Positions 5,855 through 29,385 of a stretch of DNA of 35,311 nucleotides are shown piece after piece. This stretch comes from a virus: IMG/VR virus record IMGVR_UViG_3300036716_000397, positions 1-35,311 of that record; one strand, written 5' to 3'. Position 1 is the first letter of the stretch. Every line of letters begins with the position of its first letter. A model generated the notes under the pieces. That model saw only the letters and a list, made by a program, of their open reading frames with translations, did not search any database and was not told the origin of the DNA. The position numbers and the translations under genes were made by a program.

Positions 5855-6622
5855 TTACTCATTCTCGTCTGATGTTGGAGTTATAGTAGCAGGTGTATCA
5901 GTGTTTTTTAAATCAGGTGATGAAACACGTCTAACCTTGTTTTGTCTCTCATTTTCTATCCACTCTTTAGCAAAACGGTTTGTAACTGGAGCATTCACAA
6001 ACGCTGTAACATACTTCTGAACTGTTTCAAAGTTTTTCTTTCTATCTGGGTCTTCTAAGTCACCATTGTTGTCAACAACTTGAAACCTGATTTCTCCGAA
6101 TATTTGTTGATACTTCTTCATATTGTTCTGTGCTTCATTCCACATCTTTGAAACTTCTTCTGGCTTTAGAGTTCTTTTTCTATTAAGGTTTCTTTCTTGT
6201 GCGACATCCAAACTTGTATTCACAAAAACCATCATACATTGATAACCCATTTGTGTTAGTTTTTCTTTGGCACCCACTATCTTACTAACATCTCTTCCTG
6301 TTCCGTCAATAATAACACCTAATCTACCATTTAAGTACATTTGTTCTCTTTTAGCAGTTACTTCTTTTGCTCTGCCACGAATTTCTTGACCTTTGTCAGA
6401 ATAGACAACATCTGGGTCACCATAATCTAGTCCTTCTTTGCCCATCTTGTATTCGTATATATCGTCTGAATTAACGACTCTTAGGCCGCCGCCTTTTAAA
6501 ATAGGTGAATTTACGATACGACTTTTGCCACTTCCTGGACCACCAGCCATAAACACTGCTTTAAAGATATGAGGGTCATCGACACCTTCTTCTACACTAC
6601 TAATTATTTCATTTACTCTCAT
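5855..6622 (-). CDS. Zeta-toxin-like P-loop kinase
   Basis: A 255-aa P-loop protein resembling the zeta toxin/UDP-GlcNAc kinase-like fold. Walker A GGPGSGKS is at 27-34, an acidic VNSDD follows at about 51-55, and VIIDGTGRD near 108-116 resembles the second conserved block of zeta kinases. The tail after about residue 230 is polar and probably disordered. No epsilon-type antitoxin gene is adjacent, so a stand-alone kinase role is more likely than a toxin-antitoxin pair. The start has GGAAA upstream. It is the first gene of the left-end operon, behind both a sigma70-type promoter and a late promoter. Whether it phosphorylates a sugar nucleotide, a nucleic acid end or something else is not visible. 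Confidence 0.78.
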   Translation of the reverse strand: MRVNEIISSVEEGVDDPHIFKAVFMAGGPGSGKSRIVNSPILKGGGLRVVNSDDIYEYKMGKEGLDYGDPDVVYSDKGQEIRGRAKEVTAKREQMYLNGRLGVIIDGTGRDVSKIVGAKEKLTQMGYQCMMVFVNTSLDVAQERNLNRKRTLKPEEVSKMWNEAQNNMKKYQQIFGEIRFQVVDNNGDLEDPDRKKNFETVQKYVTAFVNAPVTNRFAKEWIENERQNKVRRVSSPDLKNTDTPATITPTSDENE

Positions 6623-9114: not shown

Positions 9115-9558
9115 TCATTTTCTATTCTTAAGATACGGTTCTATATCATTATACGTTGTTCGTTCCATAATGTCAATATCATTCTTAATATCTTCATATT
9201 TGTCTACCTTGCCATTTAATCTGTTCAGAACATAACCGTCCATATGGGCAACTAAGTATATTTCACCGCCTTCCGTTAGGTCTAATATTAGCCATATTTC
9301 TGGGTTATGTTCTGGGTAGGAGTGGTATAGAGTATAGAAACATCCTAATCCATTACCACTATTCGTATAGAATTCTTCGCTGATGTATTCCCATACATCT
9401 GGCCAAGTCTTCACATCATCGTAATTAAATCCGTTTGCTGAATAAGGGAAGTCTTTCCACCAATTTACGATTTCTTGTAGTGTTGATTGTGTTAATTCTT
9501 TTTGTAGTTTTAATCGTAATTGTCGCCACTCATAAAGCAATATTGCTTTATCTCGCAT
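9115..9558 (-). CDS. Conserved phage hypothetical protein, 147 aa
   Basis: A 147-aa protein that I recall only as a family of uncharacterised proteins in T4-like phages. It has a WW-containing block EIVNWWKDFPYS (about 29-40), then WPDVWEYISEEF (about 52-63) and a GLGCFYTLYHS stretch (about 70-80), followed by a beta-rich half. No catalytic motif, signal peptide or membrane segment is seen. Its start abuts the stop of the 853-aa fibre gene, so it is probably co-transcribed with the fibre and may be a fibre-related or late protein. A consensus sigma70 promoter is embedded in its last 60 bases. Confidence 0.75.
   Translation of the reverse strand: MRDKAILLYEWRQLRLKLQKELTQSTLQEIVNWWKDFPYSANGFNYDDVKTWPDVWEYISEEFYTNSGNGLGCFYTLYHSYPEHNPEIWLILDLTEGGEIYLVAHMDGYVLNRLNGKVDKYEDIKNDIDIMERTTYNDIEPYLKNRK
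9148..9176 (-). promoter_or_regulatory. Consensus sigma70 promoter TTGACA-N17-TATAAT inside a gene
   Basis: On the minus strand TTGACA (9171-9176), 17 bases and TATAAT (9148-9153) match the sigma70 consensus at all 12 positions. It lies within the 3' coding part of the 147-aa gene and points to the Sm-like/PAAR operon, where a late promoter follows about 60 bases on. Confidence 0.65.
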
Positions 9559-25564: not shown

Positions 25565-26773
25565 TTATCTCTCTTGCCTCATGTTTGCCGCTGTGAATCC
25601 TGCTCTATTTACCAGTTTCACATCTTTATCTATTACATAGCCTTCTCCACCTTTCTGGCCATTTGTACTGGCTTCGATATCTGCTGGTTGAGAATCTAAC
25701 GTTTTAATAATTTTGTTCTTTGTAGTCATAACACCATTAATGAATTGAAAGATTGCTTCGAAGCCATCACTATTTTGTCCTACCCACTGAACTACTCGTT
25801 CTTTCTTAGGTCCACTTAGTTTTGATGAGTCTACCCATTCACTGAAATTCTTTCCTAGTTTATCTAGGTTGCCTGCTTTCACACTATTATTAATATAAGT
25901 GTAAAGAATATTACCAAAGTCTGCCATTTTTAATTCGGCTGGGACTGCCAATAGTTTATCAATTGAATTAGCATTAGATTTTAAATAACTTTCTAATCTG
26001 TCTACTTCTGGTAAGTCAACACCTGGAGATTTAGTAACATAAACAGGTGGCATAATCCATGTTTTACCTGTTCTAAGTTGTCCCATATCTACATTGCTTT
26101 TGTTGCCTTCTAAGTCTAACACTACATGCACTACGATACCTACATCATAATTAATTATCTTTTGACCGATATCACTTTTAGCATCTACTGAGTATGTTGT
26201 TACGTTTGGCTTGAATATAAGTCTGCCGTCTTTTGCCTGTGGTGTTGAGAACCATAACAAGTCTCCGTGTAAATATCCTCTAAAATCTTCAGGTATTACA
26301 CTCTCTACTTTGTCCCATATGGTTTTCATATTTTGAACAAATTCTTTTTTGCCTGCTACTTTCTCTGGCGTTGGGTCTTTCATCTTACGATTATTAAACA
26401 TATCGCCTAGTTCATCAGCACTTGTTACTCTGCCGTTATAACCTTTAGCACTGAATCCACTCTTATCTGTAAGTACGAATTCGCCATTCTCATTACGACC
26501 AAAGATAACGGCTGGTGAGCCATCCCATTTGATACTAATTGATTTTGGAGAAGTTTCTACTTGATGTAATTTAGCGATTGCTTTTTGACCGCCAACTGAA
26601 CCATCCCAGATAATTAAGTCTTCTAAATGCTGAATTCTAGCACCTTCTTCATTAAGTGCTTTATCCAGAAGTTTCTTCATCTTCTGATGAAAACCAACTT
26701 GCTTATTACGAGGCTTTCTTGGACCTCTAAATCTTCTCTCTAAGCCTGCGCCTAATATATCCCTAACCTTCAT
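25565..26773 (-). CDS. KxDG nucleotidyltransferase-like protein (DUF6267-like)
   Basis: A 402-aa protein with a ligase-like motif KWDGSPA (Lys at about 82) near its N-terminal third. This is the KxDG signature of the covalent nucleotidyltransferase fold shared by DNA ligases, RNA ligases and capping enzymes. A second block GYLHGDLLW (about 167-175) could correspond to motif III. I recall uncharacterised phage proteins with KxDGSP of this kind (DUF6267). I chose ATG 26773 over 26800 because AGGAA lies before it and it does not overlap the upstream gene. A full set of ligase motifs is not obvious, so activity is uncertain. Confidence 0.72.
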   Translation of the reverse strand: MKVRDILGAGLERRFRGPRKPRNKQVGFHQKMKKLLDKALNEEGARIQHLEDLIIWDGSVGGQKAIAKLHQVETSPKSISIKWDGSPAVIFGRNENGEFVLTDKSGFSAKGYNGRVTSADELGDMFNNRKMKDPTPEKVAGKKEFVQNMKTIWDKVESVIPEDFRGYLHGDLLWFSTPQAKDGRLIFKPNVTTYSVDAKSDIGQKIINYDVGIVVHVVLDLEGNKSNVDMGQLRTGKTWIMPPVYVTKSPGVDLPEVDRLESYLKSNANSIDKLLAVPAELKMADFGNILYTYINNSVKAGNLDKLGKNFSEWVDSSKLSGPKKERVVQWVGQNSDGFEAIFQFINGVMTTKNKIIKTLDSQPADIEASTNGQKGGEGYVIDKDVKLVNRAGFTAANMRQER

Positions 26774-27261: not shown

Positions 27262-27270
27262 GTATTTATC
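27262..27270 (-). promoter_or_regulatory. T4-type late promoter GATAAATAC
   Basis: Minus-strand GATAAATAC overlaps the TGA stop of the helicase gene (27269-27271). Predicted +1 near 27257 with AGGAG before the ATG at 27243. It separates late small genes from the early replication genes. Confidence 0.76.
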
Positions 27271-28681
27271 AATTATCATCAAATGGAGTAGCCTTTTTAG
27301 ACTTAACCATTGCACGAAGGCTAATTGCAGATTCTGATTTCTCTGGTGGGATAGCAGAATCACTATCAGAACTAGATACAGTTGTCTTTCTCTTTAATAT
27401 ATCTGTTACCTTAGACGCATCTTGTGTTCCTACTGCTAAATCATCATCTTCTAAGTCTGAATCACTAATTCTAAGACTATCTCTGTCAAATACTAGATTT
27501 ATTTTAGAACCAACACCACTTGAACTTCTTGTTTTTAGTAGTTGGAGTTGATACTGACCACGTTCTCTCATTGCGTTACTTGTAAAGATGCCGATAACAT
27601 TATCAGCAGTTTGAATTTTAGAGATACCGCCAGCGATATGAGAGTGGTCAAACTCAATTTCTTCTACTGCTGAACGATTTAACTGTGAGGCGGTCACTAC
27701 AACTGTTTGAGATTCCATCGCAAAGTTACGAATTTCTTCTGTGACATACTTGTCTTTGATGAACAAGTCACCTGGATTAACTTTCTTCGTTGCAGGCATC
27801 AATAGGTCTAAGTAATCAATACAAATACAATCAACTGTTTTACCTGTAACGATTTGAAGTTCTTTTAGATAAGCACGGACATCATTGATTGTCGAACCTG
27901 AAGACATATACTTAATTCTAAGCATACCAGATTTCTTACCGATAGTCTTAACTTTCAACTCAACATCATCTAGTTCTTTAAAGATACGTCTAGTACTCTT
28001 ATCTGTTGCCATCGCATCGATACGCATTGCTGATAATTCTTCTGACAATTCTAAAGTAAGATAGACAACATTCATACCGGCTTCTGCCCAGTTCAATGAC
28101 ATATTCTGCATAAACAAAGATTTACCAGAACCAGAACCACCAGCAAAGATAGTTACTTCGCCTCGATTAATACCACCGTAAAGTTTATCATCTAAGTCTT
28201 TCCAACCGGTAGTGATTTGTCCGTTATTGTCTTTGAGCATCTCAAGTCTTTTTCTCGGGTCATCAAAATAATCAGTACCCAAAGACCTCGCTAAACCAAT
28301 CTGAACTGCTTCTTTGATAGTTGTTTCTACTTCACCATATTTGCCTTCTTCAAGCAAGTCAGCACTATTAACGATTGCTCGTTCAATTGCTTTGTGTCTA
28401 CAGAATGTTTCAAACTCATCTACAAACCAGTCACTATGCTTTGCTATGTCTTCTAGCAATTCAATGTCTTGGCCAGTTTCTGCTTTAATCTGTTCAACAG
28501 TTGGCATAGTTGAATATTCTTCACTATAGTTGATTAGATAACCAACAATATCACGGGTTGGTCTATCAAAATGTCTATTATCAATAATACCCATTACTCT
28601 AGTAAACAACTGAGGGTCCGTCAACATAAATTGAACAAACAATTTCTGTAAGTCGGGTGAGTAGTTTTTGACTTCTGACAT
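27269..28681 (-). CDS. gp41: Replicative DNA helicase, DnaB-like (T4 gp41)
   Basis: A 470-aa helicase; T4 gp41 is 475 aa. The N-terminal domain (about 1-150) is helical and the RecA-like C-terminal domain carries Walker A GGSGSGKS (181-188), Walker B DYLDLL (289-294) and a VVTASQLNRSA stretch that fits the sensor motif. A polar Ser/Asp-rich tail ends the protein. It unwinds the fork ahead of the phage polymerase as a hexameric ring, together with the primase gp61. A perfect consensus sigma70 promoter lies in front of it and AGGAAA precedes the ATG, so early expression by host polymerase is likely. Confidence 0.95.
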   Translation of the reverse strand: MSEVKNYSPDLQKLFVQFMLTDPQLFTRVMGIIDNRHFDRPTRDIVGYLINYSEEYSTMPTVEQIKAETGQDIELLEDIAKHSDWFVDEFETFCRHKAIERAIVNSADLLEEGKYGEVETTIKEAVQIGLARSLGTDYFDDPRKRLEMLKDNNGQITTGWKDLDDKLYGGINRGEVTIFAGGSGSGKSLFMQNMSLNWAEAGMNVVYLTLELSEELSAMRIDAMATDKSTRRIFKELDDVELKVKTIGKKSGMLRIKYMSSGSTINDVRAYLKELQIVTGKTVDCICIDYLDLLMPATKKVNPGDLFIKDKYVTEEIRNFAMESQTVVVTASQLNRSAVEEIEFDHSHIAGGISKIQTADNVIGIFTSNAMRERGQYQLQLLKTRSSSGVGSKINLVFDRDSLRISDSDLEDDDLAVGTQDASKVTDILKRKTTVSSSDSDSAIPPEKSESAISLRAMVKSKKATPFDDN

Positions 28682-28705: not shown

Positions 28706-28734
28706 ATTATACAAGTTTTTAGACACTTTGTCAA
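28706..28734 (-). promoter_or_regulatory. Consensus sigma70 promoter TTGACA-N17-TATAAT
   Basis: On the minus strand TTGACA (28729-28734), exactly 17 bases and TATAAT (28706-28711) match the consensus at all 12 positions, in the gap between the ClpP-like gene and the helicase. It is an early promoter for the helicase. Confidence 0.88.
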
Positions 28735-28737
28735 CAT

Positions 28738-29385
28738 CTAATATGTTTCAATTAGTTTATCAGCAATTCCGTGTTTGATTGCTTCTTCTGGAGTTAACCA
28801 ATGGTCAGTCTTTGGGGCTAACATATGTTTACGAATATAATTCTCTTTCTTTCCAGTACATTTCATATAATGTTCAAGTAATTTTTGATTTGTCCATTCC
28901 ATATGAGATTGAGCATCTAACATATCATGGTATTGTCCTCTAGTTCCGCCACTAAATTCGTGTGACATCACTGCTGTATTTTGTGTTAGATACCTATGTC
29001 CCTTAGTACCAGCCATCATAAGCATAACACCACAAGATGCAATAGAACCCATACCGTAAGTATAAACCGCAATGCGTGATTGTTTAATAACATCAATAAG
29101 ATGCATACAACTATCTACATATCCACCAGGCGAATTGATGTATAAGTGAATAATTTCTGGTGCATCTTTTTCTGGCATCAAGTTATATTCCATAATCATT
29201 TTAACTAATGGCATACAATTTTCCTGATTGAATTCTTTATCCATATGCAGTACACCGTTCTCTCTCAAAAATTCGCCAGGCTGTTTAGGTGGAGTTGGTG
29301 GTGCGGGCATTGGTGGCATTGGTGGTGGAGATGGTGCTTCCTTTGGTTCCGGTATTACGTTAATTCTAATTTCTTCGTTTTTCAT
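28738..29385 (-). CDS. ClpP-like serine protease
   Basis: A 215-aa ClpP/S14-type protease. The usual motifs are visible: YINSPGGYV (82-90), GSIASCGV with the catalytic Ser117, a His in MSHE (His142), and an Asp in KTDHWLTPEEA (Asp194). An additional Pro-rich N-terminal segment (about 11-36) is not part of the usual fold and could bind a partner. No ClpX or ClpA ATPase gene is nearby, so it may work with the host ATPase, form mixed rings, or act in head maturation. It lies between the primase and helicase genes; AGGAG precedes the ATG. Confidence 0.92.
   Translation of the reverse strand: MKNEEIRINVIPEPKEAPSPPPMPPMPAPPTPPKQPGEFLRENGVLHMDKEFNQENCMPLVKMIMEYNLMPEKDAPEIIHLYINSPGGYVDSCMHLIDVIKQSRIAVYTYGMGSIASCGVMLMMAGTKGHRYLTQNTAVMSHEFSGGTRGQYHDMLDAQSHMEWTNQKLLEHYMKCTGKKENYIRKHMLAPKTDHWLTPEEAIKHGIADKLIETY

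Follow-up and report, generated by a model that had tools for sequence, protein, structure and literature searches.

DUF6267, a widespread phage protein family with a predicted ligase-type fold and a polymerase X-like partner in one of its two clades

The IMG/VR virus record IMGVR_UViG_3300036716_000397, whose whole analysed stretch of 35,311 nucleotides is referred to here as the window, carries on its minus strand an open reading frame (ORF) for a protein of the family DUF6267. The protein is probably a ligase-type covalent nucleotidyltransferase that seals polynucleotide ends with ATP, a chemistry deduced from its family, predicted fold and conserved residues and from the gene fusions and tree of its relatives. 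The family splits into two clades and, in the clade to which the window protein belongs, DUF6267 is commonly fused or adjacent to a domain resembling family X DNA polymerases; both the split and this association are new here.

Family, coding constraint and distribution

The gene runs from an ATG at 26773 to a stop codon at 25565–25567, the frame that the preliminary description of this DNA had proposed. A GTG nine codons 5' of the ATG (26800) opens a longer mechanical ORF of 411 residues. Since AAGGAATAAT directly precedes the ATG and the leaders of homologues start at that same methionine, the 402-residue version is judged to be the right one. Residues are numbered in the 411-residue frame, in which Lys91 is Lys82 counted from the ATG, the lysine that had been singled out at about position 82; the two blocks noted with it are likewise present, as K91-W-D-G-S-P-A and H178-G-D-L-L-W. 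The protein matches Pfam DUF6267 (PF19782) over residues 56–409 with an E-value of 4.4e-32 and 112.3 bits, the curated cut-off being 27 bits, and PHROG 455 with an E-value of 1.5e-20. It had been called uncharacterised, which holds in so far as neither library assigns the family a function, but it is already classified in both. Against one relative (L004) the gene shows 21 nonsynonymous and 64 synonymous differences, with nonsynonymous and synonymous rates (dN and dS) of 0.022 and 0.31, and against another (L058) dN is 0.125 and dS 0.70. From the Pfam match and the low dN/dS, this is an ORF under purifying selection and not a chance one.

DUF6267 is widespread in marine and freshwater phages and is one of the common genes of unknown function in marine T4-like phages. 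Searching with the window protein by tblastn found 31 phage records, each below 60% identity, mostly from Synechococcus and Prochlorococcus phages, together with Methylophilales phage Melnitz and Vibrio phage EniLVp02; the same search with one cyanophage member found 468. In Prochlorococcus phage P-HM2 the gene is the T4-like cluster GC 71. A pattern scan of IMG/VR gave at least 592 stretches confirmed as DUF6267 (592 of the 600 listed). The scans, with a few fetched phage records, yielded 284 full-length proteins. Removing redundancy at 80% identity left 149, and the alignment A4 consists of the 144 that come from IMG/VR contigs or the window. A further 29 relatives (L466–L494) were seen in bacterial and archaeal genome collections, mostly in metagenome-assembled genomes, one of them on a 188-kb contig of Nonlabens xiamenensis (L472); the loci in metagenome-assembled genomes are probably phage contigs binned with their hosts. 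No mention of DUF6267 was found in a literature search, which depended on wording and covered subscription papers thinly.

Predicted fold and candidate ligase motifs

An AlphaFold2 model built on A4 has a mean predicted local distance difference test score (pLDDT) of 88.4 and a predicted template modelling score of 0.82, with 307 of the 411 residues at 90 or above and the leader (residues 1–50) poorly predicted. When the model was compared with known structures using VIA-align, all 50 matches listed were polynucleotide ligases or, by entry title, ligase-containing complexes of non-homologous end joining, with Z-scores of 5.9–7.8. The best of those listed is the Naegleria RNA ligase (5cou; Z 7.8, root-mean-square deviation 4.0 Å, 180 residues aligned), and trypanosome REL1 (6.5), T4 Rnl2 (6.5, 2hvq), human ligase III (6.5) and T4 Rnl1 (6.2, 5tt6) are also among them. 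The aligned span extends from about residue 45–53 to 409 and crosses a long insert. The earlier suggestion of the fold shared by ligases and capping enzymes is thus supported at the level of prediction, with moderate Z-scores, and the predicted structure has a ligase-type nucleotidyltransferase arrangement, as that suggestion required.

The residues that hardly vary in the family fall in an order that would fit the ligase motifs I, III, IIIa, IV and V, names which we assign from what is generally known of ligases (Table 1). Lys91, Asp93, Gly94, Asp180, Tyr203, His225, Asn304 and Lys361 are invariant in all 219 domains aligned, while Glu386 is kept in 217 (the other two being gaps) and Lys395 in 216. 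As most of these loci came from scans with KWDG in the search pattern, the set is biased, and conservation was also counted in 74 fusion ORFs found through their partner domain, independently of KWDG, with rows that end earlier omitted from the denominators. Here Lys91 (74/74), Asp93 (74/74), Gly94 (73/73), Tyr203 (70/70) and His225 (69/69) are again without exception, and Asp180 (72/73), Glu386 (65/66) and Lys395 (64/65) nearly so. The lysine expected to be the nucleophile is therefore kept in distant relatives, a point on which the preliminary description had made its reading depend. The tryptophan of KWDG is dispensable, the motif being KYDG in Syn9 gp183 and KIDG in S-CREM2 gp87, and the catalytic-motif positions stay fixed as the remainder of the protein falls to about 21% identity. 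For comparison, the record of T4 Rnl1 reads K99EDG...EGYV227...K240IK and that of T4 Rnl2 K35IHG...VFGEF96...EGYV204...K225CK. The other ligase motifs had been described as unclear; there are now good candidates in Asp180 (III), Tyr203 (IIIa), Glu386-Gly (IV) and Lys395 (V).

A number of observations weigh against a ligase assignment. The motif III position is acidic in all 219 domains but is Asp180 in place of the usual glutamate, motif V has a single lysine and lacks the second of K-x-K, and the candidate for motif Ia, Lys113, is valine, glycine, asparagine or aspartate in 36 of the 219 domains. All VIA-align Z-scores lie below 8, and for such values the tool cautions that a match may reflect no more than a common arrangement. 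Foldseek returned no match in the PDB at an E-value of 0.001 or better; its first rows (0.11 and 0.19) are the adenylyltransferase domain of fungal tRNA ligase, and its top ten also hold unrelated CorA, PurF and glucan-synthase entries. In a Pfam scan of the window protein no ligase family (PF01068, PF09511 or PF09414) scored at an E-value of 1 or better, and HHalign comparisons of DUF6267, whole or with the insert removed, with T4 Rnl1, Rnl2 and DNA ligase gave nothing significant; since the Rnl1–Rnl2 positive control did not either, this comparison carries no information. Finally, the C-terminal part contains no oligonucleotide/oligosaccharide-binding (OB) domain. The chain ends 16 residues after Lys395, modelled as one helix, so that the C-terminal OB domain with motif VI is absent. 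Unlike Rnl1 and Rnl2, the protein has no helical C-terminal domain after motif V; its helical part (residues 263–370 of the insert) is instead placed ahead of motif IV.

Structure searches of a viral library gave strong matches to proteins of cyanophages and uncultured phages, including a 591-residue S-PM2 protein named 'cytidyltransferase-like', and a named RNA ligase (Atu_ph07) at 0.022. Two sequence searches against solved structures were set aside as chance, the single-sequence one with a P450 hydroxylase as best match (E 1.2) and the profile one with ribosomal protein eS8 (E 0.0076); six of the seven profile matches lie in the helical part, outside the ligase motifs, and one at profile positions 107–149. 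The Syn9 member gp183 is only 320 residues long.

The polymerase X-like partner, the tree and the gene neighbourhood

In a sister group of the window protein a polymerase-like gene lies just upstream of DUF6267, at position −1 in 15 of its 18 members and at −2 in three. Its product carries the motif LG[ST].G...SGDxD...VQxDF, and the putative catalytic aspartates Asp58, Asp60 and Asp133 are invariant in all 18. An AlphaFold2 model of the partner (pLDDT 89.4) is matched by VIA-align to DNA polymerases beta, mu and lambda in all 50 of the matches listed; against polymerase beta the Z-score is 10.3, with 164 residues aligned at 3.1 Å, and the best Foldseek E-value is 4.5e-4. Pfam found in three partner proteins one sub-threshold match, to AbiEii (E 0.0034), and no RlaP family.

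The association extends to fusion within a single chain. A scan for the polymerase family was followed up for the best 80 of 582 confirmed relatives, which are not a random sample, and in 74 of these loci the polymerase-like domain and DUF6267 are in one ORF, polymerase first, with a median length of 630 residues; in the remaining six the contig stops within 1 base of the polymerase match. SGDxD, which was outside the search pattern, is kept in all 80 polymerase ORFs. Two of the 74 fusions, L443 and L458, are followed by a second DUF6267 ORF, as would result from a broken reading frame. Single ORFs of this kind can be seen at L386–L465 and at L091:5098–7146, where the leader of the window protein stands in front.

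In a tree of 96 DUF6267-domain rows two clades separate with support of 100/99, A with 45 rows and B with 51. In 19 rows of clade A the polymerase is fused and in 18 it is encoded by a neighbouring gene; the other members are the window and its five kin, which have no polymerase, and L111 and L113. No row of clade B has a polymerase. The six rows of the window group are nested inside clade A (100/99), and nearest to them (99/96) are L091, a leader–polymerase–DUF6267 protein of 682 residues, and L092, with the polymerase adjacent. A leader of the form MKVxDILG...RxRGPxRKPR is common to the window protein, the L091 fusion and the polymerase protein of L092. On the simplest account the polymerase domain was lost in the window lineage, leaving the leader attached to DUF6267, although the reverse may have occurred. 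Profile searches found no polymerase partner among the ORFs of the window or in the records of four close relatives (G001–G004, all fragments, the longest 115 kb). A literature search, subject to the same dependence on wording and thin coverage of subscription papers, found no description of a phage fusion of polymerase X and ligase.

The gene had been placed in a late operon, which is not supported. It lies downstream of a gp41-like helicase gene that is preceded by an exact TTGACA-17-TATAAT site, possibly the promoter of the run of genes from helicase to DUF6267. A second exact site is present at 9148–9176, and sites with at most one mismatch number five in the window against 0.74 expected. 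The T4 late promoter TATAAATA does not occur near the gene and is found twice in the window against 4.7 expected. The 184 nucleotides downstream of the gene show no special RNA fold (z −0.66), and the sole terminator-like match lies inside the gene, at 26524–26507. Between the helicase and primase genes is a ClpP-family serine protease (28738–29385, minus strand; Pfam E 2.7e-33). At 5855–6622 on the minus strand the window encodes a P-loop kinase with similarity both to zeta toxin (Pfam E 9e-10) and to polynucleotide kinase (PHROG 505, E 8.8e-10); 19 kb from the DUF6267 gene, it is a possible end-healing partner.

Table 1. Position of the DUF6267 gene, its candidate motifs and its upstream features in the window.
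Feature	Coordinates	Strand	Basis
DUF6267 protein, 402 aa (411 aa from GTG 26800)	25565..26773	-	ORF, Pfam, start context, selection
Basic N-terminal leader MKVRDILGAGLERRFRGPRKPR...	26645..26773	-	Low confidence in model; also on L091 fusion and L092 polymerase protein
H58-L-E-D upstream of motif I, near-invariant	26618..26629	-	H58 217/219, E60 217/219, D61 212/219
Candidate motif I, K91-W-D-G, putative nucleophile Lys	26519..26530	-	Conservation in both sets
Candidate motif III, H-G-D180-L-L-W, with Asp in place of the Glu of ligases	26252..26269	-	Conservation
Candidate motif IIIa, aromatic Y203	26192..26194	-	Conservation
Invariant H225	26126..26128	-	219/219 and 69/69
Mostly helical insert (residues 229–385) separating the motif IIIa region from motif IV	25646..26116	-	Secondary structure of model
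Candidate motif IV, E386-G-Y-V	25634..25645	-	Conservation
Candidate motif V, K395-L-V-N-R	25604..25618	-	Conservation
gp41/DnaB-type replicative helicase, upstream of DUF6267	27269..28681	-	Pfam, PHROG
Exact TTGACA-17-TATAAT upstream of helicase	28706..28734	-	Consensus match only

Possible roles and comparison with known systems

In the mechanism that we favour, Lys91 would attack a nucleotide cofactor, most likely ATP, to give Lys-AMP, with Glu386, Lys395 and Asp180 holding metal and phosphate and Tyr203 packing on the base. Transfer of the AMP to a 5'-phosphate end would follow, and then sealing of the strand to the adjacent 3'-OH. Substrate binding, for which known ligases have a C-terminal OB or helical domain, may fall here to the helical insert ahead of motif IV. 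For most members of the clade a polymerase-like domain, fused to DUF6267 or encoded by the adjacent gene, could fill or extend the end before sealing, and the window lineage would work without it. An NAD+-dependent mode was also considered, prompted by the adjacency of NMNAT-like neighbours alone. Ligase activity, if demonstrated, would give the DUF6267 family a function.

On the substrate the evidence is divided, with the polymerase partner and the helicase neighbourhood pointing to DNA, and the best fold matches and the missing OB domain to RNA. That the enzyme fills gaps and seals nicks in DNA during phage replication or repair, as a single-chain counterpart of polymerase beta with ligase III, or of LigD, is a tentative proposal. 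It agrees with the family X-like fusion and the place of the gene after the gp41 helicase, and among 12 DUF6267-bearing records, six of which are fragments or of unknown completeness, eight have no DNA_ligase_A_M domain and all 12 are without an NAD-dependent ligase. Four of the 12, however, do have a canonical ATP-dependent DNA ligase, the 115-kb relative of the window being one of them, and DUF6267 lacks the OB domain. The idea that DUF6267 replaces a missing DNA ligase is weakened by this coexistence, and it is not simply a replacement ligase.

An RNA-repair ligase that reseals host or phage RNA, such as tRNA, cut by antiphage nucleases, its polymerase X-like partner restoring the nucleotides lost, as has been proposed for RlaP beside RNA ligases of phages, is likewise a tentative proposal, judged slightly less probable. 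The closest structural matches are RNA ligases, a C-terminal OB domain is missing, and the accessible text of PMC7824862 describes RNA ligases of jumbo phages that occur with Pol-beta nucleotidyltransferases called RlaP. Among the matches listed, however, the partner is nearest to the template-using DNA polymerases beta, lambda and mu and not to a known RNA nucleotidyltransferase, and the gene adjoins replication genes. Within the same 12 records one Rnl2-type and one Rnl1-type RNA ligase were found, both in one Vibrio phage.

Clade B has partners of another kind. Of the loci outside clade A, 80 of 116 have an HxGH nucleotidyltransferase motif within the three genes that follow, against none of 24 in clade A, and six ORFs of about 597 residues (e.g. 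L130, L131, L147 and L158) carry it in the same chain, C-terminal to DUF6267. The gene upstream in clade B has a PD-(D/E)xK-like motif in 47 of 92 cases, against 46 of 1152 other long ORFs, by a pattern written after the sequences had been viewed. Several upstream clusters that look unrelated have in common a PADIW...GISLK-like motif (for example at L226:4599–5930, L270:811–1641 and L256:4474–5838), which is suggestive of PD-(D/E)xK nucleases.

Many clade B proteins also begin like proteins of the T4 head. In their record the T4 internal proteins IPII and IPIII start MKTYQEFIAEA and, in the accessible text of PMC9026906, the first 10 residues suffice for capsid targeting, positions 4 and 7 acting in targeting and 8 and 10 governing processing, with gp21 cleaving after L/I-X-E. 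In the same register the pattern M..[FY]..[FY][LI].E stands at the N-terminus of 24 of the 149 DUF6267 proteins, of 16 of the 204 proteins in the HxGH-containing cluster of neighbours (a loose cluster, 77 of whose 204 members show the motif itself) and of 9 of 707 other neighbours, and at none of 17,566 internal methionines; a slightly wider pattern gives 35/149, 43/204, 11/707 and 1/17,566. Calibrated on S-CREM2, whose virion proteome is published (PMC10665884, consulted in part), the pattern was present in 3 of 50 detected virion proteins tested, namely an S-adenosylmethionine hydrolase, an APH-like kinase and a cytidylyltransferase, and in none of 162 undetected proteins. A virion-borne homologue of the HxGH partner is called an NMNAT homologue in the available text of that paper. 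The accessible part of PMC3037559 reports T4-GC190 in the S-SM1 virion, and the T4-GC190 gene adjoins DUF6267 in P-HM2. DUF6267 itself is not known as a virion protein; gp87, the member in S-CREM2, is absent from the mass-spectrometry list of that phage and is also without the pattern. A virion protein of S-CREM2, gp12 (OR473000; L501:7704–10313), which is named as Cas9, starts MTSRWSNWSTGSDKKPLRFASFMAEAA and has a stretch resembling the capsid-targeting sequence about 16 residues in. A targeting sequence on the window protein was rejected, its start, MKVRDILGAG, lacking the pattern, and head targeting therefore concerns its relatives only.

A broader scheme, which we regard as speculative, would make DUF6267 the sealing half of a novel kind of phage end-processing machine. 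In clade A this would be a single-chain polymerase X–ligase. In clade B it would be a ligase brought into the T4-like head by its capsid targeting sequence and injected together with the DNA, alongside an NMNAT-like enzyme that is also packaged and a PD-(D/E)xK-like nuclease, to mend DNA or RNA within minutes of the start of infection. The window protein would descend from a fusion whose polymerase was lost and whose leader was retained. If the head-targeted branch is real, infecting phages would bring a ligase with them, a point relevant to the repair of incoming genomes or cleaved host RNAs in the face of defence nucleases. It is unlikely that DUF6267 instead uses the same fold and lysine to move a nucleoside monophosphate to a protein, sugar or small molecule; the motif III aspartate and the missing OB or helical C-terminal domain are atypical of ligases, and the frequent HxGH partner of clade B with its virion-borne NMNAT-named homologue would suit such a role, but the polymerase X-like fusion points to nucleic acid ends. 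That the protein keeps the fold as a structural or binding factor without catalysis is very improbable; the literature found reports no activity, which would suit this reading, but the catalytic-motif residues are fixed across the divergence described above.

Among known systems, the RNA ligase of Naegleria gruberi and T4 RNA ligases 1 and 2 are like DUF6267 in the predicted core and in the order of motifs I, III, IIIa, IV and V, whereas DUF6267 has the helical insert between IIIa and IV, aspartate in motif III, a chain that ends 16 residues past motif V and no match to them at the level of sequence. LigD, and polymerase beta with ligase III, resemble the DUF6267 fusions in bringing polymerase and ligase-type domains together in one chain or complex. 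The polymerase of LigD is of the archaeal–eukaryal primase type; the DUF6267 partner in contrast resembles family X, and the DUF6267 ligase domain is without an OB fold. If active, the fusion would be a compact enzyme for gap filling and sealing, which would interest those who study repair and could serve as a reagent. RlaP is, like the DUF6267 partner, a nucleotidyltransferase of the Pol-beta superfamily beside a ligase-like enzyme in phages (PMC7824862, in its accessible text), but DUF6267 is fused to its partner in a single chain at 74 loci, and in Pfam none of the polymerase proteins tested matches an RlaP family. Lastly, T4 IPII, IPIII and Alt share with many clade B proteins the 10-residue pattern at the start in the same register; the window protein is without it, and for clade B head packaging is a prediction from that pattern.
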